DNA of 64,000 nucleotides from Aerococcus sp. (lineage in GTDB: Bacteria; Bacillota; Bacilli; Lactobacillales; Aerococcaceae). Location: positions 62,001-126,000 of the forward strand of contig JAUMZE010000001.1 in assembly GCA_030528285.1 (NCBI GenBank). Direction: 5' to 3'. Shown one piece after another: positions 13,514 through 43,449 of the stretch. A program made the position numbers and the translations under genes. The notes under the pieces are model-generated. The model worked only from the letters and a program-made list of their open reading frames with translations, did no database searches and was not told where the DNA came from. Positions within the stretch are counted from its first letter, which is position 1. Each line of letters opens with the position of its first letter.

Positions 13514-13626
13514 AAATTATATGTTTGCCTTATTATTACTATAGATCTAAAAAAAGACTTCGTTAACATGGCTTTTGAAACGAAGATGCTCGAAATCAAA
13601 TTCATGTTCAAGAAGTCATTTTAGAA

Positions 13627-13698: not shown

Positions 13699-13976
13699 AT
13701 AGGTCATAAAGAGCTGTCTCTCAACGACTCATTTATAATACCTCGTATAGTGCAAGATGTCAAATGTTTTTTTGATTTTTATTGGTGATTGGCCGCCCCT
13801 TTTCATTCAAGTATTTCTGAATCACTCTCCCTTTTCTATCTCCCATAAATACGTTCCCTTCAGAGCCTTAACTTCTAGACATCCGCTATGAAAATACACC
13901 TATAAACACAGTCTCTAAAGGGAATCCCATATTTATGAAGTAGCTTTCTATCTTCCATTATCGAAATGACATTAAA

Positions 13977-14339: not shown

Positions 14340-14410
14340 CGTTACCTGCTACGCTACTCTAATATGATCATTTTTCAAGGACACTGAGTAAGTTCCTCTC
14401 TATTTTCTGC

Positions 14411-14439
14411 TTGCACAAGCTCCTCTTATTTTGTACAAT
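14411..14439 (+). promoter_or_regulatory. Promoter of rpsT
   Basis: TTGCAC (14,411-14,416), a 17-nt spacer and TACAAT (14,434-14,439) lie about 50 nt upstream of the rpsT start. Confidence 0.7.
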
Positions 14440-14496
14440 AGCAATGTTAGTGATTAATACTCACTTTATTCTAATCTGGAAAGTTGAGGTGTCGAG

Positions 14497-14751
14497 ATGC
14501 CAACGATTAAATCTGCTATTAAACGCGACCGCAAAGCCAAAAAAGCCAATGCACAAAACTCTTCTTACAAGAGTGCAATGCGTACAGCTATCAAACGTTT
14601 TGATCAAGCTGTTGAAGCTGGTGCGGATAATACGAATGACTTATTTAAAAATGCCACAAAATTGGTTGATAAAGCAGTCAGCAAAAACCTCATTCATCAA
14701 AACAAGGCAGCCCGCGAAAAATCTCGCATGGCTAAGAAATTAAATGCCTAA
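14497..14751 (+). CDS. rpsT: 30S ribosomal protein S20
   Basis: The 84-aa, very basic helical S20 (MPTIKSAIKRDRKAKKANAQN...AREKSRMAKKLNA) is full length. It is preceded by GAGGTGTCGAG as ribosome-binding region. It is monocistronic, with its own promoter and a strong terminator, and convergent with holA. Confidence 0.98.
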   Translation: MPTIKSAIKRDRKAKKANAQNSSYKSAMRTAIKRFDQAVEAGADNTNDLFKNATKLVDKAVSKNLIHQNKAAREKSRMAKKLNA

Positions 14752-14760
14752 TGACAAGAA

Positions 14761-14798
14761 AATCCGAAAGCTTCATGACTGGAGCTTTCGGATTTTTT
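14761..14798. terminator. rpsT terminator
   Basis: A perfect 12-bp stem AATCCGAAAGCT/AGCTTTCGGATT with a 10-nt loop and a T-run (14,793-14,798). It may also serve the convergent holA gene. Confidence 0.9.
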
Positions 14799-14813
14799 CT
14801 ATCCTCTTCCTGT

Positions 14814-15842: not shown

Positions 15843-15893
15843 TATCGGACTCCCCTTCTGTTATTTGGTACGATCAAGATTGGTCTATCTCCT

Positions 15894-24888: not shown

Positions 24889-25899
24889 TTAATTGTCCCG
24901 CGACAGATAGTAATTGCTATCCTTCTTCGGCGCGGGCGGCATTGGACGTTTGATTTCCGTCACATTCTTATCAAAATCTGAGTTGCGCTGGATGAGTTCG
25001 GTTAATCGCTCTTCAAATTGCTGCTCAGAATCGAATCCCATCGACCGTGCCCGGAAGTTCATGGCCGCAACTTCCACGATATTGGAGCTGTTACGCCCGG
25101 TGCGGATTGGAACGGTGATTTTAGGAATCTCAATTCCAAAATAAGACACCATCTCAGGCGCCGTGCCGAGACGATCATAATTTCCCTCTTGATCCCAGTC
25201 GAGGAGATTAATAATCATATTTAATTCCTGCGCGCGACGGACGGCCCCGGCACCAAAGAGCGTGAGGACGTTCATAATCCCCAAGCCCCTAATTTCGATC
25301 ATGTTCTGCAGGATCTCCGGTGCCTCACCAATAATCGTGCGTTCATCGCGTTTATGTAATTCCACGCGATCATCCGCCACCAACCGATGTCCGTGTTTAA
25401 TCAGTTCCAGGGCCGTTTCAGACTTACCAATACCGCTATCACCGATAATAAGAATCCCGAGCCCGTATACATCCACGAACACACCATGGACCGATTGCCG
25501 CGACGAGAGGGTTTCCTGGAGGTAGCTGGTGATATTCTTGAATAATTGCGTTGTGATCGTGTCACTCCCGAGAATCGGAATCTGATTTTCACTGAGCGCT
25601 TGAATCACTTCATATTCCGGACGCAACCCCCGTGAAAAGATAAAGCACGGGGTTTCAGGGCGAGCCATGCGCCGCGTCATGAGTAATCGTTCCGCACTCG
25701 TCATCTTCTTCATATAGGAATGCTCATTCAGACCGAACAGCTGTACCCGTTCAGACGCATAATAATTAAAGTATCCCGTTAATTCCAATCCTGGCCTGGA
25801 AATATTCGTCGTGATTATTTCACGATTAAGAAATTCTTCTCCGCTGATCACCGTCAAATGTAAAGCATCAGCTAAATCACGAACAGTGACATTTGCCAT
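24889..25899 (-). CDS. hprK: HPr kinase/phosphorylase
   Basis: This 336-aa bifunctional enzyme phosphorylates and dephosphorylates HPr on Ser46, the switch for carbon catabolite control. The Walker A loop GDSGIGKSETALEL (about 153-166) and the HPrK signature EIRGLGIMNVLTLFG are present. It heads the hprK-lgt-gpsA-galU operon. Its 5' region is unusual: the integrated satellite ends 85 nt upstream of the start codon, inside what looks like the native promoter, so expression may now depend on element-derived sequence. Confidence 0.97.
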   Translation of the reverse strand: MANVTVRDLADALHLTVISGEEFLNREIITTNISRPGLELTGYFNYYASERVQLFGLNEHSYMKKMTSAERLLMTRRMARPETPCFIFSRGLRPEYEVIQALSENQIPILGSDTITTQLFKNITSYLQETLSSRQSVHGVFVDVYGLGILIIGDSGIGKSETALELIKHGHRLVADDRVELHKRDERTIIGEAPEILQNMIEIRGLGIMNVLTLFGAGAVRRAQELNMIINLLDWDQEGNYDRLGTAPEMVSYFGIEIPKITVPIRTGRNSSNIVEVAAMNFRARSMGFDSEQQFEERLTELIQRNSDFDKNVTEIKRPMPPAPKKDSNYYLSRDN

Positions 25900-25983: not shown

Positions 25984-26011
25984 ATGCCCTTCATTCTATC
26001 ACACTCCCCAT
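25984..26011. repeat. attL, 28-bp direct repeat (hprK side)
   Basis: Identical over 28 bp to 35,069-35,096; the flanking bases differ on both sides. On the minus strand it contains TGATAGAAT, an extended -10 element, 85-100 nt upstream of hprK. Confidence 0.92.
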
Positions 26012-26034
26012 AAATATTGATATGACACGGTTTA
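26011..26034 (+). repeat. End/origin repeat, site A
   Basis: TAAATATTGATATGACACGG followed by TTTA, abutting attL inside the element. It aligns with site B near attR and sites C and D in the probable origin around the core TTGATA...CGG. Confidence 0.6.
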
Positions 26035-26062
26035 TATTTCCACTTCCCGACTACTTCACGAA

Positions 26063-27217
26063 TCACCCCATAAAGTTGGCAAAAATTTGCGCCGTCTTTG
26101 TCTCTTGTTCTTTCGTCACATGGGTATAAACGTTTAATGTCATTTCAATGCTGGAATGGCCTAGCCTCGTTTGAACATCTTTCATATTCGCCCCCGCTTG
26201 AAATAATAAACTCGCGTGCGTATGCCTAAACCCGTGAACATTTAAATACGGCAAGGCGTGGCGCTTTGCGGTTCTTCTAGCAATATGGGCGGGGTTGTCA
26301 TAGCCTAGATAGCTGTTTGACTTAAAACGAGGGAAAACAAGTTGCTGAGCATCTAAGGCATTGAACCCAAATCCCAACAACAGGCGGGCGCTTTCTGTTT
26401 TCCACTGTTTAAGCAATTGAACAGTCTTATCATCGAGGGCGATGGTTCTAGCCTTGCCATTCTTTGGCGGGTGTACCTCTAACCCATACCGCCCCCGCTC
26501 GTCTTTAACTTTCGCTAATGTCTTGTTAATGGTGAGAGTTTGAGCACTAAAATTCACATCTTGCCAAGTGAGCGCCAATGCTTCACCACGACGCGCGCCG
26601 GTGTAGGATAGTAGATGGAAATACATGAACCACAAAGAATCATTATCATTTTTTAACGCCTCTAAAAAGCTTTTTAATTCCTCACGGGTATAAAAGTATT
26701 TAGAGCGGTTAAGGTGTTGCGCTTTCGTACGTTTGGGGCGGATCACTCTATTACATGGGTTTTCATGGATATAGCCAATCATAACCGCATATTTAAGGAC
26801 CCGACTAGCATAGTTAAAAACAGCTTTACCGGATATATAACGTTCATTCAAATCATTCGCCAATTGTTGCAAGACATGAATAGGAATCTTATTAATGGGA
26901 TAGTGCCCCAATGCGGGCAATAAATGGATTTGAAAATATTCCTCTATTGTTTTAAGCGTGCTTGATCTCACGTCTAGGCGGTACACCTCTAACCATTCAT
27001 CATAAATATCTTTAAAAGTCTTGCGCGACCTCGTGACCTCATGCCCCTGATAGAAAGCAATTTGCGCCTGCTTATAATACTGTTCAGCCTCCTTTTTAGT
27101 CTTGAAGCCTCTTTTTTGTAGTTCTTTCTTCTTGCCTGTTGCTGAGTCATAGCCTAAAAATGCCCGGACCTCGTAAAACGTACCGCGGGCGGTGCTGTAT
27201 TCCTTATACGTTGCCAT
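26063..27217 (-). CDS. int: Tyrosine-recombinase integrase
   Basis: The 384-aa phage-type integrase has three parts: an arm-binding N-terminus (MATYKEYSTARGTFYEVRAF, GFKTKKEAEQYYKQA), a SAM-like core-binding domain (about 65-160), and a catalytic domain. The catalytic residues visible are Arg in TGARRGEAL (about 202), His-x-x-Arg in HGFRHTHA, His in RLGHSS and Tyr in VYTHVTKE about 20 residues from the end. I use ATG 27217, which follows GAGGAGG; the longer frame start at 27280 has no ribosome-binding site. It reads outward toward attL and hprK with no terminator between. Confidence 0.95.
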   Translation of the reverse strand: MATYKEYSTARGTFYEVRAFLGYDSATGKKKELQKRGFKTKKEAEQYYKQAQIAFYQGHEVTRSRKTFKDIYDEWLEVYRLDVRSSTLKTIEEYFQIHLLPALGHYPINKIPIHVLQQLANDLNERYISGKAVFNYASRVLKYAVMIGYIHENPCNRVIRPKRTKAQHLNRSKYFYTREELKSFLEALKNDNDSLWFMYFHLLSYTGARRGEALALTWQDVNFSAQTLTINKTLAKVKDERGRYGLEVHPPKNGKARTIALDDKTVQLLKQWKTESARLLLGFGFNALDAQQLVFPRFKSNSYLGYDNPAHIARRTAKRHALPYLNVHGFRHTHASLLFQAGANMKDVQTRLGHSSIEMTLNVYTHVTKEQETKTAQIFANFMG

Positions 27218-27253
27218 TGTGGTGTTGCCTCCTCGTGTTTTTCTCCTCAATCT

Positions 27254-27286
27254 CCCCGAACTGAATCGAATGAAAAACATAAAAAA
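27254..27286 (+). repeat. 33-bp direct repeat, copy 1
   Basis: Begins CCCCGAACTGAATCGAATGA and ends in an A-run. It differs by two substitutions and one A from copy 2 at 28,413. It lies between the repressor gene and int. Confidence 0.75.
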
Positions 27287-27301
27287 GGCGATGGCATTAG
27301 A

Positions 27302-27730
27302 TTAAATTTTGTTTTTCCAAATTAAAAAGGTCAAGAAGTCGACCAGTGTTTTTTGATCGGACGCGTTCAATTCCCTCACCTGCTTAATTATTTCCCTTTC
27401 TTCTCGTGTTAGGTTGTCGCTTTGGTCGATGGGTTGCAGTCTATTAATAACTTCTTTTAGCTCTTGCAATACATCAGAATCAGACATCTGTAAGGAATTC
27501 GCGCGGTCTAACAGTTCTTCAGTTGTCATATTACCTAATTTGGCTATTGCCTCTATGGTGATGGGGTTAGGCATGTTTATACCTCTTTCCCATTTCGATA
27601 TTCCGCTTTTTGTTGGTCGGGTTACTTTGGTGACCTTTTGCAGTGAGTCGGCAAACTCCTCCAGCGTTTCGCGTCTTTGTATGCGTATATCTTTAATGAT
27701 TGCGCCTAGTGCTTTCTTATCGATCGGCAT
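27302..27730 (-). CDS. XRE-family repressor of the satellite (Stl/CI-like)
   Basis: This 142-aa protein has an N-terminal XRE helix-turn-helix (IIKDIRIQRRETLEEFADSLQ...TKSGISKWERGINMPNPITIEAIAKL). A helical C-terminus carries a long charged segment (LTREEREIIKQVRELNASDQ). There is no RecA-cleavable S24 peptidase domain, so induction by SOS cleavage is unlikely. A phage-encoded antirepressor, as for SaPI Stl, would fit. I choose ATG 27730 after AAAGGGG; the track frame begins ten codons earlier. It is transcribed divergently from the Cro-like gene. Confidence 0.85.
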   Translation of the reverse strand: MPIDKKALGAIIKDIRIQRRETLEEFADSLQKVTKVTRPTKSGISKWERGINMPNPITIEAIAKLGNMTTEELLDRANSLQMSDSDVLQELKEVINRLQPIDQSDNLTREEREIIKQVRELNASDQKTLVDFLTFLIWKNKI

Positions 27731-27773
27731 TATTCTCGCCCCCTTTATTATTGCAATCATAACATAAATAAGG

Positions 27774-27818
27774 AAAGTTTAATATAGGGCTTGACAAAGT
27801 TTATTGATATAGTAATAT
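27774..27818 (+). promoter_or_regulatory. Rightward early promoter with probable operators
   Basis: TTGACA (27,791-27,796), a 16-nt spacer and TAATAT (27,813-27,818) point into the Cro-like gene. Two direct AAAGTTTA copies (27,774 and 27,796) are 22 bp apart, about two helical turns, one overlapping the -35. They are good repressor-operator candidates in the divergent intergenic region. Confidence 0.68.
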
Positions 27819-27851
27819 GTAGTCAATCACCTGAAGAGAGGAGGGAAACAC

Positions 27852-28082
27852 ATGACTACCAAAGTCGCAAATTACCGGCGCTATCTGAACTATAGTCAAA
27901 AGCAAATGGCGGACTTATTGGGCGTTTCTTACCAAGCTTATTGGCTTAAGGAGAAAGGCAAAACCCCATTCACTGACACCGAAAAAATAAAGCTGGTCGA
28001 CTTCTTTAAAAACCATATTGAAGATAGTGAACTAGCTAGCAAGGTCACAATTGAAGCCTTATTTTTTAATGCGAAAGTGTAA
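27852..28082 (+). CDS. Cro-like helix-turn-helix regulator
   Basis: The 76-aa protein is almost entirely one XRE-type domain (VANYRRYLNYSQKQMADLLGVSYQAYWLKEKGKTPFTDTEKIKLVDFF). GAGAGGAGGG precedes its ATG. It is the first rightward gene opposite the repressor, the position of Cro or of the PICI early activator. Confidence 0.85.
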   Translation: MTTKVANYRRYLNYSQKQMADLLGVSYQAYWLKEKGKTPFTDTEKIKLVDFFKNHIEDSELASKVTIEALFFNAKV

Positions 28083-28130
28083 TAAATGGATCAAAATAGC
28101 AAATAAAATCCATAGAGAGGAGGGGAAATC

Positions 28131-28409
28131 ATGGAAACACCTCAAACGCTTGCCCCTGAATGGCGTGAGGCGCTGAAAGCTGAAGCGATAGCGGTGTATC
28201 GTCAAACCGCTAAAGAAGCACGGCGGGACATACTGAATTTTAAAGACTGGTACACATTTAAAGAAGTTAGCAAGCTGTTAAATGTATCAGCCGGAACGCT
28301 TAATAAGTGGATCGGGTACGGCCTACCGTATTCGAAAATAGACGCAAAGAAATACATCAGCCGAACAGAATTATACAAGTTTCTGGAACGTCACAAGGTC
28401 AACCAGTAA
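28131..28409 (+). CDS. Excisionase/AlpA-like DNA-binding protein
   Basis: The 92-aa protein has a charged N-terminus followed by a MerR/AlpA-like winged helix-turn-helix (DWYTFKEVSKLLNVSAGTLNKWIGYGLPYSKIDAKKYISRTELYKFL). Such proteins act as excisionases or as activators of satellite replication genes. GAGGAGGGG precedes the start. It is the last gene before the first set of leftward terminators. Confidence 0.78.
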   Translation: METPQTLAPEWREALKAEAIAVYRQTAKEARRDILNFKDWYTFKEVSKLLNVSAGTLNKWIGYGLPYSKIDAKKYISRTELYKFLERHKVNQ

Positions 28410-28412
28410 TCC

Positions 28413-28446
28413 CCCCGAACTGGATCGAATGAAAGACATAAAAAAA
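28413..28446 (+). repeat. 33-bp direct repeat, copy 2
   Basis: CCCCGAACTGGATCGAATGA, then a stretch ending in a 7-A run. It lies just after the Xis-like gene; with copy 1 it brackets the regulatory module. Confidence 0.75.
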
Positions 28447-28467
28447 GACCCCTCACGTTGAGGAGTC
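28440..28467 (-). terminator. Leftward-oriented terminator hairpin 1
   Basis: GACCCCTCA and TGAGGAGTC pair with one mismatch around CGT. The A-run on the left becomes a U-run only for a minus-strand transcript; no T-run exists on the plus side. Confidence 0.55.
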
Positions 28468-28494
28468 GGACAACATAAAAGAAATACCGAGGAC

Positions 28495-28529
28495 AAAAAA
28501 CGCCCCGATATTCTAACCATATCAAGGCG
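28495..28529 (-). terminator. Leftward-oriented terminator hairpin 2
   Basis: CGCCCCGATAT pairs with ATATCAAGGCG (9 of 11) around a 7-nt loop. The left-flanking A6 gives GGGGCGTTTTTT on the minus strand, a strong intrinsic terminator for leftward transcription. Confidence 0.65.
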
Positions 28530-28570
28530 AATAGATGGCAAGGACGTACCGAATTCAACCGCCTCAATAT
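28495..28570 (-). ncRNA. Candidate leftward small RNA 1 of the satellite
   Basis: On the minus strand an extended -10 (TGGTAAAAT, 28,577-28,585) is followed after about 45 nt by terminator hairpin 2, predicting an RNA of roughly 75 nt. There is no convincing -35 and no minus-strand gene. This is inference from promoter and terminator signals only. Confidence 0.25.
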
Positions 28571-28615
28571 ATTTATATTTTACCATAGTACGAACAAAGA
28601 AAGAAGCGCATTCAT

Positions 28616-28870
28616 ATGAGTTTAAAGACTACACTGCGGGCCAATCTATGGGGCTCACATTTTTCAAGCTACACCACCGCCCTAGGTTTGCAAGAGCTTG
28701 TTAACAAGACGATAGAAGACACCAAAGCAGGCAAGCCCATGAATGATAATTATCTGATGGCGTTAGAAATCTACACAAATGAATTAATAAGCGAATTAGA
28801 GCAAATGACGGGCTTAATGGCAAAAGAGTGTAACCCCGTGAAGACGGTGATAGAGAAATTAGAGGAATAA
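28616..28870 (+). CDS. Small satellite protein of unknown function (84 aa)
   Basis: I do not recognise this protein. It has a basic start (MSLKTTLRANLWGSHF), then two predicted helices (TTALGLQELVNKTIED and NYLMALEIYTNELISELEQM) joined by a short Gly/Pro/Asn turn. This pattern recurs in the following ORFs. The ribosome-binding site is weak (AAGAAAGAAG). Leftward terminator hairpins lie on both sides of it. Confidence 0.65.
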   Translation: MSLKTTLRANLWGSHFSSYTTALGLQELVNKTIEDTKAGKPMNDNYLMALEIYTNELISELEQMTGLMAKECNPVKTVIEKLEE

Positions 28871-28894
28871 AAAACCGCCCCAAGCTGAGGCGGT
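28868..28894 (-). terminator. Leftward-oriented terminator hairpin 3
   Basis: ACCGCC/GGCGGT around a 9-nt loop. It overlaps the stop codon of the 84-aa gene, and its U-run exists only on the minus strand. Confidence 0.6.
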
Positions 28895-28975
28895 CAAATT
28901 GGCAACAGTGAACAAGGGAGGAAACTACTAAAAAAATGAATTTAGGAGGATTCCCGCAAGTCCTTTGCTCACGGT
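28869..28975 (-). ncRNA. Candidate leftward small RNA 2 of the satellite
   Basis: On the minus strand a perfect extended -10 (TGCTATAAT, 28,982-28,990) is followed about 90 nt later by terminator hairpin 3. The predicted RNA of about 107 nt carries two CCTCC stretches that could pair with Shine-Dalgarno sequences. It is antisense to a 25-codon ORF. The -35 is weak; this is inference. Confidence 0.28.
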
Positions 28976-29013
28976 ACTTATATTATAGCACGTTACTAGG
29001 AAAAGGAGAATGA
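28936..29013 (+). CDS. Possible 25-aa micro-ORF or leader peptide
   Basis: ATG 28936 encodes MNLGGFPQVLCSRYLYYSTL and five more residues. Its stop at 29,011 sits on the ribosome-binding region of the next gene. GGGAGG lies about 14 nt upstream of the ATG, further than ideal. It could be a coupling leader or simply chance. Confidence 0.25.
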   Translation: MNLGGFPQVLCSRYLYYSTLLGKGE

Positions 29014-29019
29014 AGAATT

Positions 29020-29316
29020 ATGAATATCTATACCACTAAAACAGTCAAAGCCTGGAAATTGAACGGAATCAAAACAGAATCCGAGCAATGCGCCATCCTT
29101 GCCGAAATGCTAAGACGTGTAACGAGTCACGGCGGGGACGACATCGAAAGAGGGGCGGACGTTTATGCCTATCTTGATAATGTGAGCGCCTGTGCCCGCA
29201 TTCTTGAAAATCATTTGTACGAATTATGGGATGACATTGAAGAACTAGACAAAGACGAGAACGCGGACGGCTACGCCATCGACTACGACGACGAGGACGA
29301 GAAGGAGGAGGCTTAA
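29020..29316 (+). CDS. Small acidic satellite protein of unknown function (98 aa)
   Basis: Not recognised. Two helices (SEQCAILAEMLRRVTSHGG and ADVYAYLDNVSACARILENHLYELWDDIEEL) are followed by a very acidic tail (DDEDEKEEA). AAAGGAG lies 11 nt before the ATG. The acidic tail could mimic nucleic acid, but this is only a possibility. It is the start of a tightly packed run of small genes. Confidence 0.72.
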   Translation: MNIYTTKTVKAWKLNGIKTESEQCAILAEMLRRVTSHGGDDIERGADVYAYLDNVSACARILENHLYELWDDIEELDKDENADGYAIDYDDEDEKEEA

Positions 29317-29319
29317 CAC

Positions 29320-29673
29320 ATGGATTTAAACGACTTATCAAGCACCCCGGATATCATCGAAACGCTGGAAACAGTGGCGGGGATGTGCCTACAAGGGGCC
29401 ATAGCGCTCGACCCGACTATCATTAAGAACAAGCGGGAAATGAAGAACGCTATGAACACATTTAGCACCGCGCAACGGTCTATTTTCAGTTTTCTCGTGT
29501 TGTCTATTCATGCGTTGAAGTGTATCGAAAACGGGCAACCCGTGCCATACATCCCGACACGTGCCGAATTAAATAAAGAACTTGAGAACATGAAGAAGAC
29601 TGTTCAAGCCCTCGACGACGCGCCAACCGTTAGACGGTCAATCATTGAGGCGCTGAATAACATTAGTTACTAG
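29320..29673 (+). CDS. Small satellite protein of unknown function (117 aa)
   Basis: Not recognised; apparently all helical. It has a hydrophobic stretch (AQRSIFSFLVLSIHALKCI) too polar for a clear membrane helix. Its ribosome-binding site GGAGGAGG lies within the end of the previous gene, so the two are coupled. The helix-loop-helix spacing resembles the neighbouring ORFs. Confidence 0.72.
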   Translation: MDLNDLSSTPDIIETLETVAGMCLQGAIALDPTIIKNKREMKNAMNTFSTAQRSIFSFLVLSIHALKCIENGQPVPYIPTRAELNKELENMKKTVQALDDAPTVRRSIIEALNNISY

Positions 29674-29684
29674 GAGGCCAACCA

Positions 29685-29873
29685 ATGGAAATAACAGAAC
29701 TAGAAGACGCATACAATACCATACACGACTATAACACGATCTTACAATTGTGTAGCCATGCCATCAATACGCCCAAGCGATCACCTAAAGAAATGGCCAT
29801 CGATGAAGCTTTAATGATCGTCATGGATTACCTAGAGAATTCGGCGAACCTGATCGCCAAAGCAATGGAATAG
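29685..29873 (+). CDS. Small satellite protein of unknown function (62 aa)
   Basis: A two-helix protein (DAYNTIHDYNTILQLCSHAI and EALMIVMDYLENSANLIAKAME) with a KRSPKE turn. It can be aligned loosely with the 70-aa ORF at 30,285 through an I..QL...AI...(D/E)AL....L pattern. AGGAGG precedes the start. Confidence 0.68.
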   Translation: MEITELEDAYNTIHDYNTILQLCSHAINTPKRSPKEMAIDEALMIVMDYLENSANLIAKAME

Positions 29874-29887
29874 AAACGGACACGGCT

Positions 29888-29930
29888 AGGAGGGTGACCG
29901 CTTGCCCTCCTGATCGCCGTATTGAGGAGG
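29888..29930 (+). promoter_or_regulatory. Possible Shine-Dalgarno switch before the 116-aa gene
   Basis: CCCTCCT (29,905-29,911) can pair with AGGAGGG upstream (29,888-29,894) or, alternatively, with the AGGAGG ribosome-binding site (29,925-29,930) of the next gene. Two mutually exclusive hairpins suggest translational control. Confidence 0.35.
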
Positions 29931-29937
29931 TTACAAA

Positions 29938-30288
29938 ATGGATAACAAAACGATCACCGCATACAAACAATCCTGTACAAACATCTGGAATAGTTACACC
30001 CTCACCCAATCCATGAGTTTTCTTTTATGGGACATCAAACAACGAGCGGAACGCGTAAACGACGAGGACGACACCGACAAGCGGGGGGAGCTGTATGCCG
30101 TGCTCTATGACGAACTGGAAAACCTACACGGACAAATAAATATCATCATCGATCTTCTAAACGCGTCAATGGTACCAATTGGGCTGGTTGAAAAGCATTT
30201 AGACAACTACCAACGAGCGACAAAACCGAATTCAGTGATTGCGGGGCGTGATTGGTGTATCGATATGAGTGAGGAGGCGACGGAATGA
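29938..30288 (+). CDS. Small satellite protein of unknown function (116 aa)
   Basis: Not recognised. Helical and acidic in the middle (RVNDEDDTDKRGELYAVLYDELENLHGQINIIIDLL). A more polar C-terminus ends GRDWCIDMSEEATE. It has a strong ribosome-binding site and overlaps the next gene by 4 nt (ATGA). Confidence 0.73.
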   Translation: MDNKTITAYKQSCTNIWNSYTLTQSMSFLLWDIKQRAERVNDEDDTDKRGELYAVLYDELENLHGQINIIIDLLNASMVPIGLVEKHLDNYQRATKPNSVIAGRDWCIDMSEEATE

Positions 30289-30497
30289 CCCCCGTCAGCG
30301 ATCGAACTAAACAACTATTACTCATTGAGGACTTGCGGGACTGTTACACGATCGCCCAAGTTTCCCGCAACAGCCTTCAAAATGGCGGGGATGTGTTGCC
30401 CGTCAGTGACGCCCTGACCGTCCTTTTACGGCGCTTAGACGGCTGTATAGACGATTTAACGGACATCCTAGAGAAAGACGAGGGGGCAACAAAATGA
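30285..30497 (+). CDS. Small satellite protein of unknown function (70 aa)
   Basis: A two-helix protein (LIEDLRDCYTIAQVSRNSLQN and SDALTVLLRRLDGCIDDLTDILEKDE), resembling the 62-aa ORF. ATGA overlaps at both ends show strict translational coupling in a run of four genes. Confidence 0.7.
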   Translation: MTPVSDRTKQLLLIEDLRDCYTIAQVSRNSLQNGGDVLPVSDALTVLLRRLDGCIDDLTDILEKDEGATK

Positions 30498-30790
30498 ACC
30501 AACTACGACACCACGCCGACGCCTTAGAAGCATGTTATTACAGTCTAAAGACATCCAACAGCCTTATCGGTTACATCGCTGGCAACATCAGAGAATTGAA
30601 AGAGAAGTGCCCGGATAATATTGTGACCCTCTATCTCGAGAAAATGCAAACACAACTAGAGGACATATATATCTTACAGGATAAAATGACCTTTCAAATA
30701 GATGAGGCTACATACTATTTATTAAATGAGCTAGATGAACGGAATAAGCTAGAACCCTATACAGCGAAAGTTGAGGACGTAAAATCATGA
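30494..30790 (+). CDS. Small satellite protein of unknown function (98 aa, second)
   Basis: Helical throughout (ALEACYYSLKTSNSLIGYIAGNI; TLYLEKMQTQLEDIYILQDKM; EATYYLLNELDE). It overlaps both neighbours by 4 nt. No known domain is seen. Confidence 0.7.
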   Translation: MNQLRHHADALEACYYSLKTSNSLIGYIAGNIRELKEKCPDNIVTLYLEKMQTQLEDIYILQDKMTFQIDEATYYLLNELDERNKLEPYTAKVEDVKS

Positions 30791-31122
30791 CAAGACCAAC
30801 CAAAATAACAACCAAAGCCGAGGCAATTGAAGCCCTCCAACTAGTGGCCGGATCTGAGGCGATATTAATGGGTATGATCCTCTATGACGCGACAAAACAC
30901 AAAAAGCCGGCATTACTGGAAAACATACAAATCGGGCAAGCCCTCGCCTTGTATCAATTAACGGGCGTTATTAACTATCTGAAAGGCAACACGGACATGA
31001 AGACAATTGCCGAACAGCTAGAAGAAGCCAAACAACTATACAAGAGCAAGAACACAAACCACCCCAACCGGGACGAGTTTTTAAGCTTTATCGATATCAT
31101 TATCAAGAACGAGGAGGATTAA
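30787..31122 (+). CDS. Small satellite protein of unknown function (111 aa)
   Basis: Begins with a basic segment (MTRPTKITTKAEAIEAL), followed by helices around GSEAILMGMILYDATKH and NIQIGQALALYQLTGVINYL, and ends acidic (IIKNEED). It overlaps the previous gene by 4 nt and is the last of the small-gene run before the helicase. Confidence 0.7.
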   Translation: MTRPTKITTKAEAIEALQLVAGSEAILMGMILYDATKHKKPALLENIQIGQALALYQLTGVINYLKGNTDMKTIAEQLEEAKQLYKSKNTNHPNRDEFLSFIDIIIKNEED

Positions 31123-31154
31123 AAAAATGATTTTTACTGAGGAGGATGAACGCG

Positions 31155-32864
31155 ATGAATGTCGAATATCGAACAGCGTCGGCCCTCTACCATGAACTAA
31201 ATTACATACTTGTGCAATTAGACAATATAGACGACTGGGGAACCGTCGACACCATGACCCTAGACAACATTAAAGAGATTATTAACAGCATGATCTTTTG
31301 TGATATATCGGGATCCACTCAGGAGCAGAGACATACAGGGAACGGCTTTTATAAGGAGTTTAGCGGGGCTGATCCTGAACGGCTACCCAATATCAAAGTT
31401 AATTACACGATCAAAGCGGGGGCTTTGGGTCTTGCGTATGGCCGTGTTTCGCGTAAGAAAAAGAATGAACAAGAATTCATTACCTACAACCCTATCAAAT
31501 TCAATAATTACGCTCGGTTTTTAGCTGATTTAGTAGCGGGTAGAGTCATCTACGACAAGGGACATTTTTTGATATATCTAAGACATCAATACATCCCCAT
31601 CAACGACAATAACGCCCTCTTAAAATACTACTCAACGGACGAGCACCAACGCCAACGCGATTTTTTAAAGGTGATGGAAATTATCTATAAGAACCGTGAG
31701 GACTATAAACACCCTTACATCATTCACCGGCATACCATGAGCGGGGCGGATTTTCGAATTCACGCCAAGCCGTGGGGCATTGAAACCAATATCACCCCGA
31801 AAGATAACGAGTTGTTTTTTCTCTATGATGATATTTCGCTCACTGATTTAGATTTACAAAAAGCAAGTGACTTCACGGAAATGATCGCCCAACCAGGCGC
31901 AAGCTATGAAAACGCGATGCAAGTTCATGCCTATGTGTTAGCCCGTATGATGGATCTGATCCATCCTGAGAAGTTTTTTATCTTTAAAGACTTTGGGCGA
32001 ACCGGTAAAGGTCTCTTCATTTCAACGCTTGGCGGTTTTGCCAAAGTTCACCGAATCAATTATCACAATTTAATAGAAGCCAACGGGATAGAAAAATCGA
32101 ACGAATGGGCCAAGTTATACGATGCGGATGTCGCCCATGCCAACGAGGCAAAGGGAATCAAATCGAAAGGAATGAACGAACTTAGATTAATTTCAAGCGG
32201 TGAAGTAGCAACCGGGCGGTTCATTAGCAAAAATACATTTAGTTTTAAAGTGAAGTGCGTGTTAATTATTGACACAAATGGGCCTGTAGACATTGAACAA
32301 ATTACCGCGAACAAACGGCGGGCGGTGAATATCGCATTTAAAGACCGACCAGAAGAGGAAACAGAAGCAGAAGCGGATAAGATTTTCAGGCCTTATATAG
32401 ATTGGATTACGGACGAGGAAACCAAAAAAACGGCGTCCTGGTCGGTCTTAGTTAACAGCGTGTTATACATGCAGGCATGCCATGGGCGTTTTAATTTCCA
32501 ACATGCCGAACTACCTGAGTATCATGACGCGGACCAGTTGACGGATACACAAATCATCATGTTAGAAGAGATATACGCAAGGGGCTTTATTGAAGCCGGT
32601 AATGAAACACTGCAACGCGCGATCTTGGCCGACTATGGCAAACTAAGCGCAAAGAAAGCACAAGAGGCAACGCGGGCGATCGGTGTAGCGACTAACCAAC
32701 AAAAATGGATCAATGGCAAGAACACCAAAATTCACAAAGTCGCCAACCGTGAAAAGTTTTTAATGGCTTATAAGTTGTTACACGATCACCCAAATAACGA
32801 CAATAGATCACAAACTGAACTTAAAAAGAATATTGAGAGCCTAACCAATCTAACTCCTCTATAA
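31155..32864 (+). CDS. rep: Satellite replication initiator/SF3-type helicase
   Basis: This 569-aa protein has a D5_N-like region (YDKGHFLIYLRHQYIPINDNN...) before a P-loop domain. The Walker A equivalent is FGRTGKGLF (about 280), with Gly where Ser/Thr normally follows the Lys. The Walker-B-like segment is DVAHANEAKG (about 325), and sensor-type segments are SSGEVATGRFISKN and VLIIDTNGP. This matches phage and PICI replication helicases that open the satellite origin. I choose ATG 31155 over 31146 because GAGGAG then has normal spacing. It lacks its own primase; that is supplied by the next gene. Confidence 0.85.
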   Translation: MNVEYRTASALYHELNYILVQLDNIDDWGTVDTMTLDNIKEIINSMIFCDISGSTQEQRHTGNGFYKEFSGADPERLPNIKVNYTIKAGALGLAYGRVSRKKKNEQEFITYNPIKFNNYARFLADLVAGRVIYDKGHFLIYLRHQYIPINDNNALLKYYSTDEHQRQRDFLKVMEIIYKNREDYKHPYIIHRHTMSGADFRIHAKPWGIETNITPKDNELFFLYDDISLTDLDLQKASDFTEMIAQPGASYENAMQVHAYVLARMMDLIHPEKFFIFKDFGRTGKGLFISTLGGFAKVHRINYHNLIEANGIEKSNEWAKLYDADVAHANEAKGIKSKGMNELRLISSGEVATGRFISKNTFSFKVKCVLIIDTNGPVDIEQITANKRRAVNIAFKDRPEEETEAEADKIFRPYIDWITDEETKKTASWSVLVNSVLYMQACHGRFNFQHAELPEYHDADQLTDTQIIMLEEIYARGFIEAGNETLQRAILADYGKLSAKKAQEATRAIGVATNQQKWINGKNTKIHKVANREKFLMAYKLLHDHPNNDNRSQTELKKNIESLTNLTPL

Positions 32865-32962
32865 CCAATACTTAACCACTAGAAAACAGCATAATAACAA
32901 CAACTAACTAACATAACCATATATATTTGTTTTTAGTTACTACTATACTATTAAAATACCTA

Positions 32963-32985
32963 TAAACGTTGATACGATACGTTTT
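32963..32985 (+). repeat. End/origin repeat, site C
   Basis: TAAACGTTGATACGATACGT plus TTT. It matches site B in its first half and keeps TAAACGTTGATA exactly. Confidence 0.6.
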
Positions 32986-33062
32986 CATAATGTTTCATAA
33001 ATCTATGAGAGTATCCCCCTTTTTTTACTATTATGTTGGTTAATTTGGTTAGTGGTGAGGAC

Positions 33063-33082
33063 CCGCATAACGTCAACGTTTT
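33063..33082 (-). repeat. End/origin repeat, site D
   Basis: On the minus strand AAAACGTTGACGTTATGCGG, which differs from site B at only 2 of 20 positions. It is inverted relative to site C. Confidence 0.65.
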
Positions 33083-33190
33083 GGGCTGTTAACTGTTGGT
33101 TATAAAATTATTTCTATCGGTTAGGCAAGCCAAACCACCGAAAACAAGCACCACCCTGACAAATTTCACAAACTTGAGGAGGTGAACGAC

Positions 33191-33982
33191 TTGAATAGCT
33201 ATGAAATGGCGTTAGACATGTTAGAGAGTGAGGGCGTCGAGTGTATCCCCATTGATCAAGATAAGCGCCCGGCCCTCGCATTCAAGGACAAGCCAATAAC
33301 AACCGACTTCATACAAGCCAACGCGACCATATACGCCAACAGCCCGGGTCTTGCGGTTCTATGCCGGGGGTTGTGGTGTATCGATATCGACAAAGGACAC
33401 GGCGACGGCGTGAACGGGTTTCAATCCTTGCAGGAATCGGAATACATGCCCGAACTACTGAACAACCTCAACACCTGGCAACAGAAGACACCAAGCGGGG
33501 GGCGTCATCTGATTTATAAGAAACGGGAGGGCATCCCCTACCGTCAAAAAATCAGCTTCATGCCCGGGGTCGACATCAAGGCCCATCATAATAATTATTT
33601 TCTGTTAAGTGGATCCAGAACAGCGCGGGGCGTGTATCAATCCAACCACAAGCGCCCCCAATACTACGCCGGGGAATTAGAATCACATATCTTTGAGGAG
33701 GAGGACACGGGGGCGGGGTTTGTTTCTCCTGTTCTTCAGTCGATGGATTTTAGCCATCTCAAGCCCTACGCCCATCACGGCAAGGGCAAAGGCAAAGAGG
33801 CATACAACAGAATCATACGAGGCGAAAGCGTGAACCGTAACAACGATCTGTTTCTAGCCTCGTCCTATTGCAAAGCTTGCGGGATTCCGATTGATCCACT
33901 GATAACCCTCATCGGCGACATAAAAAACGGGGATGCGTTCACTGAATCCGAATTCTTGAAGACGGTGAACAGTGCCAAATAG
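33191..33982 (+). CDS. Bifunctional DNA primase/polymerase (prim-pol) domain protein
   Basis: This 263-aa replication primase has the prim-pol motifs: WCIDIDKGHG (DxD, about 63), TPSGGRHLIYKK (sxH-type, about 103) and PGVDIKAHHNNYFLLSGS (about 125). A C-terminal PriCT-like segment (RNNDLFLASSYCKACGI...ESEFLKTVNSAK) follows. I choose TTG 33191 rather than GTG 33182 because GAGGAGG (33,176-33,182) overlaps the latter. It is separated from rep by the origin and follows rep, the reverse of the usual primase-then-helicase order. Confidence 0.85.
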   Translation: MNSYEMALDMLESEGVECIPIDQDKRPALAFKDKPITTDFIQANATIYANSPGLAVLCRGLWCIDIDKGHGDGVNGFQSLQESEYMPELLNNLNTWQQKTPSGGRHLIYKKREGIPYRQKISFMPGVDIKAHHNNYFLLSGSRTARGVYQSNHKRPQYYAGELESHIFEEEDTGAGFVSPVLQSMDFSHLKPYAHHGKGKGKEAYNRIIRGESVNRNNDLFLASSYCKACGIPIDPLITLIGDIKNGDAFTESEFLKTVNSAK

Positions 33983-34058
33983 CTAGAGGGGCATACCGAC
34001 CCCCATCCCCGGGCCTAGGTCATTCCCCCGCCTTGACTGTACAAATATATTCATGAAG

Positions 34059-34088
34059 CACCCTCACCATATGGGCGGGGTGTTTCTT
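34059..34088 (+). terminator. Probable terminator after the primase
   Basis: CACCC and GGGGTG arms around CATATG, followed by TTTCTTT. It would end the replication transcript about 75 nt after the primase stop. Confidence 0.45.
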
Positions 34089-34165
34089 TGCATTTAGAGC
34101 CCGCTAGCGTCCTCCTGGTGCTCGTATTCTCCTCCTCACGTATCATCCATTCATAACGAGGGAAA

Positions 34166-34188
34166 AACGCCATACAGGGCGTTATAAT
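34166..34188 (+). promoter_or_regulatory. Promoter -10 overlapped by an inverted repeat
   Basis: A perfect inverted repeat AACGCC-ATACAG-GGCGTT (34,166-34,183) runs into TATAAT (34,183-34,188), 18 nt before the ArpU-like gene's start codon. No good -35 is visible, so an activator or repressor probably binds the repeat. Confidence 0.55.
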
Positions 34189-34205
34189 GGGTCTGAGGTG
34201 ATGAC

Positions 34206-34610
34206 ATGAGAAAGACACAACTAGCCCAATTAAAAAGCATTTTGCAAGAGTATCCACAAACGCCCCGCATATTGGCCGAAATTCGCGAAAAGATATTCAA
34301 TCCGTATATTGAAGAAGATACCAACATAGGAGGTAGCAGGGGGCAACTGAACCCGGACAAAGATGTCAACAAGATTCTCACCATAGCAGATAACCGACGT
34401 TTTAAGCGTCTGACCTTGAACGCTGAGGGCGTGAAATACACGCTAGAGCAGTCGCCGGAATGGGTGCAGGAATTAATAAAACTCATGTACTTCAAGCGCT
34501 CACCTATGGGAATCACAAAAGCTTGTGACTTTGTGGCGTGCAATTACCGGACGGCCAAGAAGTATCATGATGACTTTTTGGAAAGACTTGCCGACCAGTT
34601 AGGCATATAA
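34206..34610 (+). CDS. ArpU/RinA-family late regulator-like protein
   Basis: The 134-aa protein has a basic helical N-terminus, a conserved-looking core (NKILTIADNRRFKRLTLNAEGVKYTLEQSPEWVQELIKLMYF) and a C-terminal sigma-region-4-like helix-turn-helix (PMGITKACDFVACNYRTAKKYHDDFLERLAD). This layout fits the ArpU/RinA phage regulators that control late packaging and lysis genes and lie just before cos and the small terminase gene in phages. GAGGTG precedes the start. It is the last gene of the element. Confidence 0.72.
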   Translation: MRKTQLAQLKSILQEYPQTPRILAEIREKIFNPYIEEDTNIGGSRGQLNPDKDVNKILTIADNRRFKRLTLNAEGVKYTLEQSPEWVQELIKLMYFKRSPMGITKACDFVACNYRTAKKYHDDFLERLADQLGI

Positions 34611-34870
34611 GCACGCTGAGCACCTCCAGTCTATGGGGCTATATGGGGCGATGGTGTAGCGGACACATGGGTTTAACAAAATATTAGAACCGGCATTCGA
34701 TGGCGGTCGGGGTGTAGCAGATTCCCAAAATAGGAACATGCCAATTCATGGGGTAACGATTTGTTACGTCACCAGAAGCCAATATAGCCCCTTAGAGCCG
34801 TCTAAATGGTGGGCGGGTCCTCACCCTCTAAGGCGCTGACAAAGCTGACCCCTTAAAAAGAGCGCAATAA
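34611..34870. other. Gene-free region after the ArpU-like gene, candidate cos/packaging site
   Basis: No coding frame can be supported here. The DNA is G-rich, with recurring TGGGG/TGGGC blocks, an inverted pair GGTGGGC...CCTCACC and a 13-bp match (GCGGGTCCTCACC, 34,813-34,825) to the origin. In cos phages the segment right after the ArpU/RinA gene carries cos, so a captured helper-phage packaging site is plausible. This is inference. Confidence 0.35.
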
Positions 34871-34873
34871 AAA

Positions 34874-34897
34874 GGAGCTAGCTTATTAACTAGCTCC
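34874..34897. terminator. Bidirectional terminator near the right end of the element
   Basis: A perfect 8-bp stem GGAGCTAG/CTAGCTCC with an 8-nt loop and A5 on its left, which gives TTTTT for leftward transcripts. The right side is only mildly T-rich. It may insulate the element from the host. Confidence 0.6.
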
Positions 34898-35005
34898 CAT
34901 CATTTTCAAATTGTTTAATTGAGGAGATTAAGGAGCGGGAATCATTCCCGAAAATTTCCCGAATTACAGACGTGAATTATTTGAGTTTATTTAAAAGTAA
35001 TCCGA

Positions 35006-35031
35006 TTAAAACGTTGATATTATGCGGTTTA
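35006..35031 (+). repeat. End/origin repeat, site B
   Basis: TTAAAACGTTGATATTATGC then GGTTTA, about 38 bp inside attR. It is the best match to the consensus of sites A, C and D. Confidence 0.65.
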
Positions 35032-35068
35032 TTGTGCTTGGTTGTATGCTTTTGAGTGATCTTTTGTA

Positions 35069-35096
35069 ATGCCCTTCATTCTATCACACTCCCCAT
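35069..35096. repeat. attR, 28-bp direct repeat (yvlD side)
   Basis: Identical to attL at 25,984-26,011. Confidence 0.92.
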
Positions 35097-35105
35097 GCCC
35101 GACAA
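35078..35105 (-). promoter_or_regulatory. Ancestral hprK promoter, disconnected from hprK by the satellite
   Basis: On the minus strand TTGTCG (35,100-35,105), a 16-nt spacer and the extended -10 TGA-TAGAAT (35,078-35,086) form a promoter lying downstream of the yvlD terminator. The -10 is inside the att repeat; the -35 is outside it. At attL the -10 is kept next to hprK, but the corresponding -35 position reads TCAATA or ATCAAT. Confidence 0.5.
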
Positions 35106-35256: not shown

Positions 35257-35622
35257 CTAAAAGCGGTCATAGTAGTGCGGTTCCACCAAACGCTGAATGC
35301 CCCACTGGATGATACCATAAAGAAGTGCAAACAACATCGTATAGCCGAACGATTCCATGTAGACAGCGCGCCCCATGATCGCATCCGCTATCGCGAAAAT
35401 AATCCCATTCAATACAATCCGAAACAGCCCCAGCGTGAGGAGCGTAATTGGAAAGGAAATGAAACGCAGGATCGGATAAACGATACGATACAGGATCATC
35501 AACACAATTGCTAACACGACCGCTGTCCCGAAACTCGAAATATAGGCGTGTGGCCAAAATACCTCAGAGAGTCCCGTCAAGACCACCGCATTCAAGATGA
35601 GTTGTAAAAGAAAACGCAACAT
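35257..35622 (-). CDS. YvlD-like phage-holin-superfamily 4 membrane protein
   Basis: The 121-aa protein has four hydrophobic helices (about 4-24, 30-46, 55-75 and 85-110), as in the YvlD/PF04020 family of small envelope-stress-related membrane proteins. It follows the PspC-domain gene by 2 nt, with GAGGAGGAATAAGC before its ATG. The pair resembles the Bacillus yvlC-yvlD unit. Its molecular function is not established. Confidence 0.85.
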   Translation of the reverse strand: MLRFLLQLILNAVVLTGLSEVFWPHAYISSFGTAVVLAIVLMILYRIVYPILRFISFPITLLTLGLFRIVLNGIIFAIADAIMGRAVYMESFGYTMLFALLYGIIQWGIQRLVEPHYYDRF

Positions 35623-40626: not shown

Positions 40627-43449
40627 TTATTTTTTGGCTAAGAGCGGTTTGAGGTATTGGCCAGTATAACTCTCCGGCACCTCCGCTATTTCCTCCGGTG
40701 TACCGGTAGCGACAATCGTACCGCCCCCGTCCCCACCTTCTGGACCGAGGTCAATCAGGTAGTCGGCGGACTTAATAACGTCCAGATTATGTTCAATCAC
40801 AATCACTGTATTACCGTCATCCACCAAACGTTGGAGTACTCCGAGGAGGCGTTTAATATCCTCCGAATGAAGACCCGTCGTTGGTTCATCGAGAATATAG
40901 AGCGTGTTACCCGTCGATACGCGCTGCAACTCACTCGCCAATTTCATACGCTGCGCTTCTCCCCCTGAGAGCGTTGGTGCAGGCTGCCCGAGCGTTACAT
41001 AACCGAGCCCGACATCTTCAATTGCTTGGAGTTTGCGAGTGATTTTCGGGATGGCTTGGAAGAAGGACAGTGCCTCTTCCACACGCATATCGAGAATATC
41101 CGCGATGTTCTTCCCTTTATAGTGCACTTCCAGAGTCTCTGCATTGTAGCGCGTCCCCCCGCAGACTTCGCACGGCACGTAAACATCAGGAAGGAAGTTC
41201 ATTTCCACCTTGATAATCCCGTCACCCTTACAATTCTCGCAGCGTCCGCCTTTCGTATTGAAACTGAACCGCCCCTTACTGTAGCCGCGCACCTTGGCTT
41301 CGTTCGTCTGGGCAAAAAGTTCACGGATATCGTCGAACACACTCGTATAAGTCGCTGGATTACTCCGCGGGGTGCGACCAATCGGACTCTGATCGATGTC
41401 GATAATCTTGTCTAACTGACTGTAGCCGGTCACTTTATCGACTTTGCCGGGAACGACCTGCGCACGATTTAACACCCGAAGCAATGATTTCTTCAATACT
41501 TCATTCACGAGCGAACTCTTGCCGGAGCCCGAAACGCCGGTTACCACATTCAAGCGTCCCAGTGGAATATCGACATTCACATTCTTGAGGTTGTTCTGTT
41601 TGGCCCCAATCACATGGAGCCATCCCTTATCTTCACTGCGACGAGTAGCAGGAATTTCGATTTTACGTTTCCCACTCAAGTATTGGCCGGTGAGGGAGTC
41701 CGGGTTCTTAGCGATTTCTGCGGGTGTACCGACCGCTTCGACCTCGCCACCGTGGTCCCCCGCACCGGGTCCCATATCAATCAGATAGTCGGCCTGACGC
41801 ATCGTATCCTCGTCGTGTTCCACCACAATCACGGTATTTCCAAGATCGCGCATCCGTTTCAGGGAATGAATCAAACGGTCATTGTCGCGCTGATGGAGTC
41901 CAATTGAGGGTTCATCGAGGACATACATAATCCCCGAGAGATTCGATCCGATCTGAGTAGCCAAACGAATCCGCTGCGCTTCTCCCCCTGAGAGCGTCCC
42001 GGCAGAACGTTCGAGCGTGAGATAGTCCAATCCGACTTCATTCAAGAAAGAAATCCGTGCCTTGAGTTCCGCCATAATCGGAGCAGCAATCGCCAAATCC
42101 TCGCCGGTGAGCTGTAACTCTTGGAAGAATTTTTTGGCATGTTCCACTGACATCGCCGTCACATCCGCAATATCCTTTCCGTCAATCTTGACAGAGAGGG
42201 CTTGACGATTGAGGCGTTTCCCGTGGCACACCGGACATGGGAGTTCCGCCATATATTTCGCCATATTTTCACGGATCATTTTACTAGAACTGTTGAAGTA
42301 GCGCCGTTTAACATTGTTCAACACGCCCTCAAAACGCATTTCCTTGTCCTGGACATTCCCAAACTCATTCTCATAGTGAAAATGGAATTCATCCTCGCCA
42401 CTCCCATTGAGAATCAGATCCTTTTGTTCTTCCGATAAAGATTTGAATGGCACATCCATCGCAATATCGAAGGCAGTGGCTGCTTGTTCTAACAGCTGCG
42501 GATAGTACCCGCTCCAGGACGAATCCCACGGTACGATGGCACCATCTCTGAGGGATTTCTCTGGATCAGCCACGACTAAACTCGGATCGACCTCCATCTT
42601 GATTCCAAGCCCGTCGCACTCCGGACAACTACCATATGGAGCGTTGAAGGAGAACAAGCGCGGTTCCAGTTCGCCCACCGTGAATCCGCAGTACGGGCAG
42701 GAATAATGCTCGGAAAATAGCATCGGTTCGTCCCCGATCACATCAGCCACCGCATAGCCGTCCGTTAACCGCAAAGCCGTCTCCAATGAATCAGCTAAGC
42801 GCGCACGGATGCCGTCCTTCACTACCAGACGGTCCACCACGACATCGATATCATGTTTTTTATTCTTGTTGAGTTCTGGGAGATCGTCAATATCATACAT
42901 TTCCCCATCAATCCGCAGTCGCACGTAGCCCTGCTTTTGGATTTTCTCCAGCAATTTCTTGTGTTGGCCTTTCTTACCATAGATAACGGGCGCCATAATC
43001 TGCACCTTGGTCCGTTCTTCTAAAGCAAGTACACGGTCAATCATCTGGTCCAACGATTCACTCTTAATAGGCGTCCCATCATTTGGGCAGATCGGATGTC
43101 CTGCCCGTGCAAAGAGTAGCCGCAAATAATCATTAACCTCAGTGATCGTCCCTACCGTTGAACGAGGATTACGGTTGGTTGTCTTCTGATCGATCGCAAT
43201 CGCTGGGCTCAACCCTTCGATACTGTCAACATCGGCCTTCTTGACATTCCCTAAAAACTGCCGCGCGAATGACGACAGACTCTCGACATATCGACGCTGC
43301 CCTTCTGCATACAAGGTATCAAATGCCAAAGAACTCTTGCCCGACCCTGATAAGCCTGTGATCACGACTAATTCATCACGTGGAATCGTGACATCAATAT
43401 CTTTCAAATTATGAGAACGCGCTCCGCGAACTACAATGGTATCTTTCAC
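40627..43449 (-). CDS. uvrA: Excinuclease ABC subunit A
   Basis: This 940-aa damage-recognition ATPase has two ABC cassettes ([15 protein letters not shown] near the start and [15 protein letters not shown] near 640). Each has an [16 protein letters not shown] signature and a Walker B. Zinc-finger cysteines are visible in [10 protein letters not shown]...CPECDG and CENCKGDG...CEVCGG. The usual neighbour uvrB is not in this window; uvrA stands alone between pstB and sbcD. Confidence 0.97.

Follow-up and report, generated by a model that had tools for sequence, protein, structure and literature searches.

Staphylococcus aureus pathogenicity islands (SaPIs) and other Gram-positive phage-inducible chromosomal islands (PICIs) combine an integrase, a divergent repressor switch, Xis, Rep and the primase-polymerase PrimPol, and lack structural and lytic genes (PMC6092414). 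Their replication origin lies directly 3′ of rep and consists of two sets of iterons around an AT-rich core (PMC6092414). Known PICIs act on the late regulator of their helper phage via PtiA and PtiM (PMC5052747, PMC8125051). Further marks of PICIs are a master repressor that is not cleaved in the SOS response, genes that interfere with the helper or redirect its capsids or packaging, and induction by a phage followed by packaging into phage-like particles. Capsid-forming PICIs (cfPICIs) encode their own capsid and packaging genes, and the phage-inducible chromosomal minimalist islands (PICMIs), a family of the Vibrionaceae, are small and lack capsid-remodelling genes (PMC10803314). Here we describe a 9.1-kb element inserted at hprK in the genome of an Aerococcus sp. 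of the family Aerococcaceae (GenBank assembly GCA_030528285.1). It lies within a 64,000-nucleotide stretch, hereafter the window (contig JAUMZE010000001.1, forward strand, positions 62,001 to 126,000), whose numbering we use throughout.

We consider the element likely, at a probability of roughly 0.8, to be a phage satellite that a resident prophage would mobilise, the contractile one on contig C10 being the probable helper. By sequence it is a satellite of the PICI lineage; its mobilisation by a helper is inferred. The element shares the gene complement and the origin plan of the Gram-positive PICIs. It differs from them in its size, in encoding its own RinA and in integrating at a predicted promoter, and no terminase small subunit (terS), capsid-size or pti-type gene was recognised in it. 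None of the capsid and packaging genes of cfPICIs was found, and the PICMIs, likewise small, are likened to it by description only. The genes and sites that define the element are as follows.

24889..25899, minus strand: host hprK, downstream of attL (PF07475, PF02603)
25984..26011, unstranded: attL, the 28-bp attachment (att) core on the hprK side (exact repeat)
26063..27280, minus strand: tyrosine integrase (PF00589, 6.2e-28; PF14659; Arm-DNA-bind_4; phrog_1)
27302..27760, minus strand: CI/Stl-like repressor with HTH_3 (Pfam, PHROGs and NCBIfam matches)
27852..28082, plus strand: Cro-like helix-turn-helix (HTH) protein (profile matches)
28131..28409, plus strand: Xis-like HTH_17 protein (PF12728, phrog_66; TIGR01764 'excise' below cut-off)
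31146..32864, plus strand: Rep, a PICI-type helicase/initiator with P-loop GRTGKG (phrog_5609, 5.5e-89; alignment)
32865..33181, unstranded: predicted replication origin; TAACCA/TGGTTA iterons in inverted halves surround a stretch with 76% AT (32920-33035)
33182..33982, plus strand: PrimPol primase-polymerase (PF09250, 8.5e-14; phrog_695; alignment)
34206..34610, plus strand: RinA-family late-gene activator (TIGR01636; 71.1 bits, cut-off 31.9)
35069..35096, unstranded: attR, the 28-bp att core on the yvlD side (exact repeat)
35257..35622, minus strand: host yvlD-like gene (PF04020), adjoining hprK in 12 of 14 relatives

Fifteen open genes lie between the repeats. The integrase and repressor genes read leftward, and cro, xis, eight small genes, rep, the PrimPol gene and rinA read rightward, with the CI-like repressor gene divergent from cro. 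The integrase probably starts at an internal ATG near 27217, and the profile matches of the repressor include no peptidase domain or family. Like PICIs, the element lacks the structural and lytic genes of phages. Searches of its 15 proteins in Pfam and PHROGs brought out no clear structural, terminase or lysis family, and the sole such labels are three sub-significant terminase small-subunit matches (E 0.046-0.24) that fall on the HTH motifs of Cro and Xis. Moreover, 273 open reading frames (ORFs) from the two resident prophages and a capsid-bearing island (L067) left no structural-gene trace in the element DNA. Their matches were confined to int, the repressor region, rep, the PrimPol gene and rinA, in part in other frames, apart from a single match of 19 residues at E 0.006. 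A preliminary description of this DNA had proposed the perfect 28-bp repeat, the repressor/Cro/Xis switch, the replication genes with an origin-like region and an ArpU/RinA-like gene, and had seen no virion, terminase or lysis gene. These points are borne out, and the activator can be placed more precisely in the RinA family.

The replication module follows the PICI origin plan. Five TAACCA/TGGTTA copies occur in the 317-bp gap between rep and the PrimPol gene, where 0.15 would be expected, and none of 5000 shuffles reaches five. Scans of genome and viral contigs with the single Rep protein returned nothing; a search with a Rep alignment detected relatives. Rep relatives occur in seven of the 76 genomes of the family (own included) and at eight loci of named genomes, with Enterococcus, Staphylococcus and Tetragenococcus among them. 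Loci matching both Rep and PrimPol occur in three named Staphylococcus genomes and 16 viral contigs. All eight aligned Reps retain the P-loop GKG, and seven other PrimPols are 48-96% identical to that of the window in the alignment. No relative of Rep or PrimPol with a solved structure was found by sequence. In 15 of these viral contigs there is a relative of the terS of locus L053, which matches the phrog_51 terminase small subunits, and we read these islands as probable SaPIs. At L067, terL, portal and major head genes stand beside a related rep-PrimPol pair. Rep matches 45 phage records, mostly at ~24-30% identity, and 26 of these are named Streptococcus satellite phages; compared as a group, the Streptococcus satellite prophages of the Javan set (26 records) have a related Rep at ~24-29% identity and are distant in sequence. 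Rep is also 43.7% identical over 134 amino acids (aa) to a protein of Staphylococcus phage PT1028, which we take to be a SaPI. Separately, contig C18 encodes a 228-aa protein (L042:935-1621, minus strand) that resembles the middle of Rep (26%) with the P-loop region replaced by FVLDSPDWFSSDAV. It lies near a putative integrase, a putative repressor and what we read as type I methylase sequence, and is perhaps a remnant or a decoy.

A second element of the same plan lies on the same contig, ~54 kb away end to end (L027, G000:C12:16000-34000, ~5123-17988). This sister satellite shares with the window element an integrase (72% identity), PrimPol (96%), Rep (46%), two orphan genes (94-95%) and a right-end block. 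It differs in its attachment target, in carrying an ArpU rather than a RinA activator and in a minor-head gene (337 aa, phrog_2494). Its att repeat is 15 bp long and overlaps the last codons, at the 3′ end, of a gene that we read as TMEM175-like. The minor-head protein is 41% identical over 240 aligned columns to that of the second resident prophage, on contig C11. The sister also has two DNA stretches in common with the prophages, neither of which was seen in the window element. One, of 63-89 bp (91-97%), links L027:17050-17138 with L038:10983-11070, near an apparent end of the C10 prophage, and is possibly an exchanged promoter or terminator. The other, of ~120 bp (79%), matches the HNH region of the C11 prophage.

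The integration site is specific. The exact 28-bp direct repeat ATGCCCTTCATTCTATCACACTCCCCAT (25984-26011 and 35069-35096) encloses the 9.1 kb and, allowing up to three mismatches, occurs nowhere else in the genome (20 contigs, 1.62 Mb, 85% complete); a reversed-pattern control gave 0. The window holds four exact direct repeats of at least 20 nt, two of them within a tRNA cluster. HprK is present in all 15 genomes of the genus (own included), and in 12 of the 14 others the yvlD-like gene lies directly upstream of hprK with no element between them; the remaining two (L017, L018) showed no such gene within 1.5 kb of hprK. Because it is conserved next to hprK, we take the yvlD-like gene to be a host gene rather than a phage holin. 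Removing the element in silico leaves 272 bp between yvlD and hprK, compared with 264 bp in G011, the nearest species, whose hprK is 92% identical. Aligned with the G011 gap, the joined flanks run through the att core for 51 columns, with a local score reached by none of 1000 shuffles and a global score reached by none of 500. Like PICIs, the element thus has a specific attachment site together with an integrase. The preliminary description had suggested looking for such empty sites. It had also held that a related locus lacking the 28-bp duplication would speak against a satellite, which was misconceived, since an empty site looks exactly so and supports insertion. Its satellite assignment, offered with reserve, gains support from the PICI-type layout, the empty sites, the satellite names among the Rep phage records and the sister satellite.

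A recurrent use of hprK as a target was not seen: a search of further satellite and integrase loci (L028-L033, L045-L068, L070-L076) detected HprK in none of them, and only the present locus has it. In the set of 31 satellite loci used for the terS search, L029/L047, L030/L051 and L031/L048 are the same places counted twice, as L052/L067 probably are too. Integrases closer than 1e-100 occur in seven of 395 Lactobacillales genomes (own included) and are 42-48% identical, except for the sister's at 72%.

The preliminary description placed the element beside hprK. It does adjoin that gene, but this understates the position, as the repeat overlaps the predicted hprK promoter. Three sites are involved.

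25993..26001, minus strand: TGATAGAAT, extended -10 of the predicted hprK promoter, which falls within the attL core; element DNA now supplies the -35 side
26012..26033, plus strand: copy of a 22-bp motif that abuts the attL core and covers the predicted -35 position (repeat search)
35078..35105, minus strand: putative original promoter pair left at attR, TTGTCG-16-TAGAAT with TG, now facing into the element

The TGATAGAAT sequence lies on the hprK strand, 102 bp before the hprK start codon. Of the 14 relatives, 13 have the pattern TGNTARAAT in the 320 bp preceding hprK, compared with five of 98 control pieces from the same loci. Its distance from hprK is 42-52 bp in 12 relatives and 151 bp in G011; the one relative without it (L013) has TGATATGAT instead. 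In the uninterrupted site (attB), TTGTCG stands 16 bp upstream of the -10 with a 4/6 match to a -35, and the best candidate at attL, TCAATA, matches at 3/6. The pair left at attR points inward and is followed by a terminator-like hairpin at 34898-34873. Counting against a promoter, a scan for promoter-like sites found 17 in the region against a shuffle mean of 20.7; because this is no excess, the claim rests on conservation. We infer that the conserved -10 in the att core belongs to the working hprK promoter, whose -35 side insertion would swap. The integrated element would retain the extended -10 and replace the -35 side, so that hprK expression would be altered, not lost, and would change on excision.

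Promoter targeting as such is already known for islands, and in the SpyCI type it goes with regulated excision. Described islands integrate at 5′ ends or promoters of mutL (SpyCI), uvrA (SpnCI and SmiCI, at its promoter) and a permease family gene (EfCIV583, in E. faecalis V583) (PMC3430984, PMC4129442). The present element differs from SpyCI-type islands in its target and in a core that keeps the extended -10, which predicts a hybrid promoter, whereas SpyCIM1 separates the gene from its promoter in full. PMC4129442 and a limited set of related papers make no mention of hprK. It is plausible, if somewhat short of an even chance, that integration here has no regulatory effect and that the extended -10 in the repeat suffices alone. 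The 28-bp core does restore the extended -10 plus all sequence downstream; the change in the -35 match from 4/6 to 3/6 and the 22-bp motif over that position argue the other way, and both are weak evidence.

The choice of C10 as the probable helper follows from the late-gene activators, because the element carries a related form of the RinA-type activator of C10. In the contractile-tail prophage on contig C10, rinA immediately precedes terS; this prophage also has a terL of PBSX type, a portal gene of SPP1 type and a tail sheath gene. The first terL match spans seven stops because it runs past the terL frame, which is itself open (422 aa). The C11 prophage has an arpU gene and the minor-head protein related to the sister's. 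A search of the 395 Lactobacillales genomes places the C10 RinA closest to the window RinA (58%, 160.6 bits; the next is at 38% and 96.3 bits), and matches at E<=1e-8 occur in 25 genomes, own included. For the sister ArpU, the closest protein is the ArpU of C11 (46%, 111.5 bits; the next is at 40% and 82.3 bits), with matches in 56 genomes, own included. The two satellite activators both fall in phrog_36, and the window RinA has no match beyond chance to the C11 ArpU. Another species of the genus carries an island (L032, G002:C1:1430500-1450499) with an ArpU-type gene near its right end. RinA-like genes also occur near the right ends of L061, L065 and L066, where they may lie outside the islands. 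We found no earlier report of a satellite-coded RinA or ArpU in the portion of the CC-licensed literature that was searched. With only two satellite-prophage pairs in this genome, the pairing is suggestive.

Two side observations concern the surroundings of these genes. The G002 island has two genes that we read as HicA/HicB-like before its terminal ArpU-type gene (L032 12510-13628). The two prophages have in common a 27-bp stretch, ATTTCGCACGATT[C/G]TCTCACGATTAGC, with one base different, found after rinA at L039 ~16558 (minus strand) and after arpU at L041 ~15054 (minus strand), though rinA and arpU belong to different NCBIfam families. It is a possible late-promoter or packaging element.

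In the cycle that we propose, a prophage product would lift the CI-type repressor. One candidate cross-regulator is an HTH protein encoded among the genes before the C10 rinA, which shares 48% identity with the satellite repressor over 96 aa. Excision by Int and Xis would follow, with replication started by Rep at the iteron origin and primed by PrimPol. At the late promoter ahead of the prophage terS, the satellite RinA would have one of two effects: activating that promoter for the satellite or competing with the prophage RinA. Satellite DNA would be packaged by the C10 terminase. We further advance, tentatively and as a doubtful proposition, that satellites in this host recognise their helper via a matched copy of its late activator (RinA for C10, ArpU for C11), that each copy could drive the helper terminase operon directly and that the att site makes hprK respond to satellite excision.

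The RinA may instead be a decoy that blocks the helper's late genes, serving interference in the same satellite, an alternative that we hold appreciable but clearly below even odds. Such a role would agree with the PtiA/PtiM precedent and with the presumed DNA-binding C-terminal part, which is identical to the C10 RinA at 26 of 43 positions and includes NYRTAK[K/R]YHDDF. The two proteins nevertheless align over nearly their whole length (133 gapless columns), and the ArpU-type genes of the sister and the G002 island are likewise open and of usual length, which argues against a decoy.

The helper could also be an absent or lytic phage, in which case the likeness to the C10 RinA would reflect gene exchange among the phages of this host. 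We consider this less likely than not, though satellites induced by virulent phages have been reported (PMC13376191) and no packaging site common to the element and C10 was found. Against it, two satellites pair with two different resident prophages, each the top match outside itself in 395 genomes.

Several observations weigh against a satellite mobilised by the C10 prophage. At 9.1 kb the element is smaller than the ~15 kb typical, though not obligatory, for Gram-positive PICIs (PMC6092414). Pfam and PHROGs searches of its 15 proteins revealed no terS, no capsid-size gene and no known interference gene, and the three named Staphylococcus relatives gave no L053-type terS match. The Rep matches other than satellites are mostly full Streptococcus and Lactococcus phages, so Rep alone is no proof of a satellite. 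No packaging signal common to the element and the C10 prophage was found, and the activator pairing could stem from a gene pool common to the phages of one host. Finally, the C10 contig apparently ends inside the prophage, and for this reason the prophage's own switch is not seen. A defective, now chromosome-bound prophage remnant that has lost its structural genes would fit the phage-type integrase, switch and RinA, the small size, the missing packaging genes and the related Reps of full phages, but it is improbable given that islands and phages named as satellites show the same rep-origin-PrimPol set and gene order, that a sister of the same plan with a 96% identical PrimPol occupies another site and that the element DNA holds no structural-gene trace of the resident prophages or L067.

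Eight orphan genes and several repeats make up the remainder of the element.

28616..28870, plus strand: orphan, 84 aa, no family
29020..29316, plus strand: orphan, 98 aa, very acidic (net charge -16), weak PADLOC PDC-S59 match (17.3 bits)
29320..29673, plus strand: orphan, 117 aa, no family
29685..29873, plus strand: orphan, 62 aa, no family
29938..30288, plus strand: orphan, 116 aa; the sister satellite has a copy at 94% identity
30285..30497, plus strand: orphan, 70 aa; the sister satellite has a copy at 95% identity
30494..30790, plus strand: orphan, 98 aa, no family
30787..31122, plus strand: orphan, 111 aa, no family
32964..32985, plus strand: 22-bp motif copy in the origin region (repeat search)
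34669..34843, unstranded: non-coding right-end block, common to the sister satellite (75-86%)
34945..34966, plus strand: tandem 11-bp repeat, candidate integrase arm site
35009..35030, plus strand: 22-bp motif copy near attR (repeat search)

The preliminary description called the gene content between Xis and rep unfamiliar, and indeed none of the eight small genes matches Pfam or PHROGs at E < 0.001. This region also matched nothing in phage collection DNA except for 32 bases of an unrelated phage, and the element has no near match among plasmids. Together with RinA, the orphan genes are candidates for interference or redirection of packaging. The three strong copies of the 22-bp motif in the element follow from how the search was constructed; the sister has two good copies (scores 22.2 and 17.1) and a left-end copy within background (11.4), and one place in a prophage scores 17.1. 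The CACGA-type 11-bp tandem repeat occurs at satellite ends and between rinA or arpU and the next genes in both prophages, with 10 matches against 3.15 expected from shuffles. The right-end block occurs in one of the 15 genus genomes, at three places within the two elements. Two roles proposed for it were rejected: as a structured RNA it has a fold z-score of -0.13, no Rfam match at E <=1 and no common fold with the sister copy, and as a C10 packaging site it gave chance-length matches only.

Elsewhere in the window, an exact 26-bp direct repeat occurs ~1 kb apart (40949-40974 and 41972-41997). The tRNA cluster comprises five minus-strand genes (Pro, Pro, Arg, Arg, Gly; 13084-13698), and an exact 77-nt repeat spans both of its tRNA-Arg genes.

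Two satellites and two prophages in one bacterium, with each satellite activator matching a different prophage, form a natural two-by-two test of helper choice and of whether satellites command the late genes of a helper or merely inhibit them. If the proposed role of the matched activators is true, it would represent a route to hijacking late transcription that is distinct from the Pti inhibitors of SaPIs. The hprK site possibly links satellite excision to sugar regulation; if the promoter reading is also true, hprK, which encodes the kinase of carbon catabolite control, would become responsive to satellite excision.

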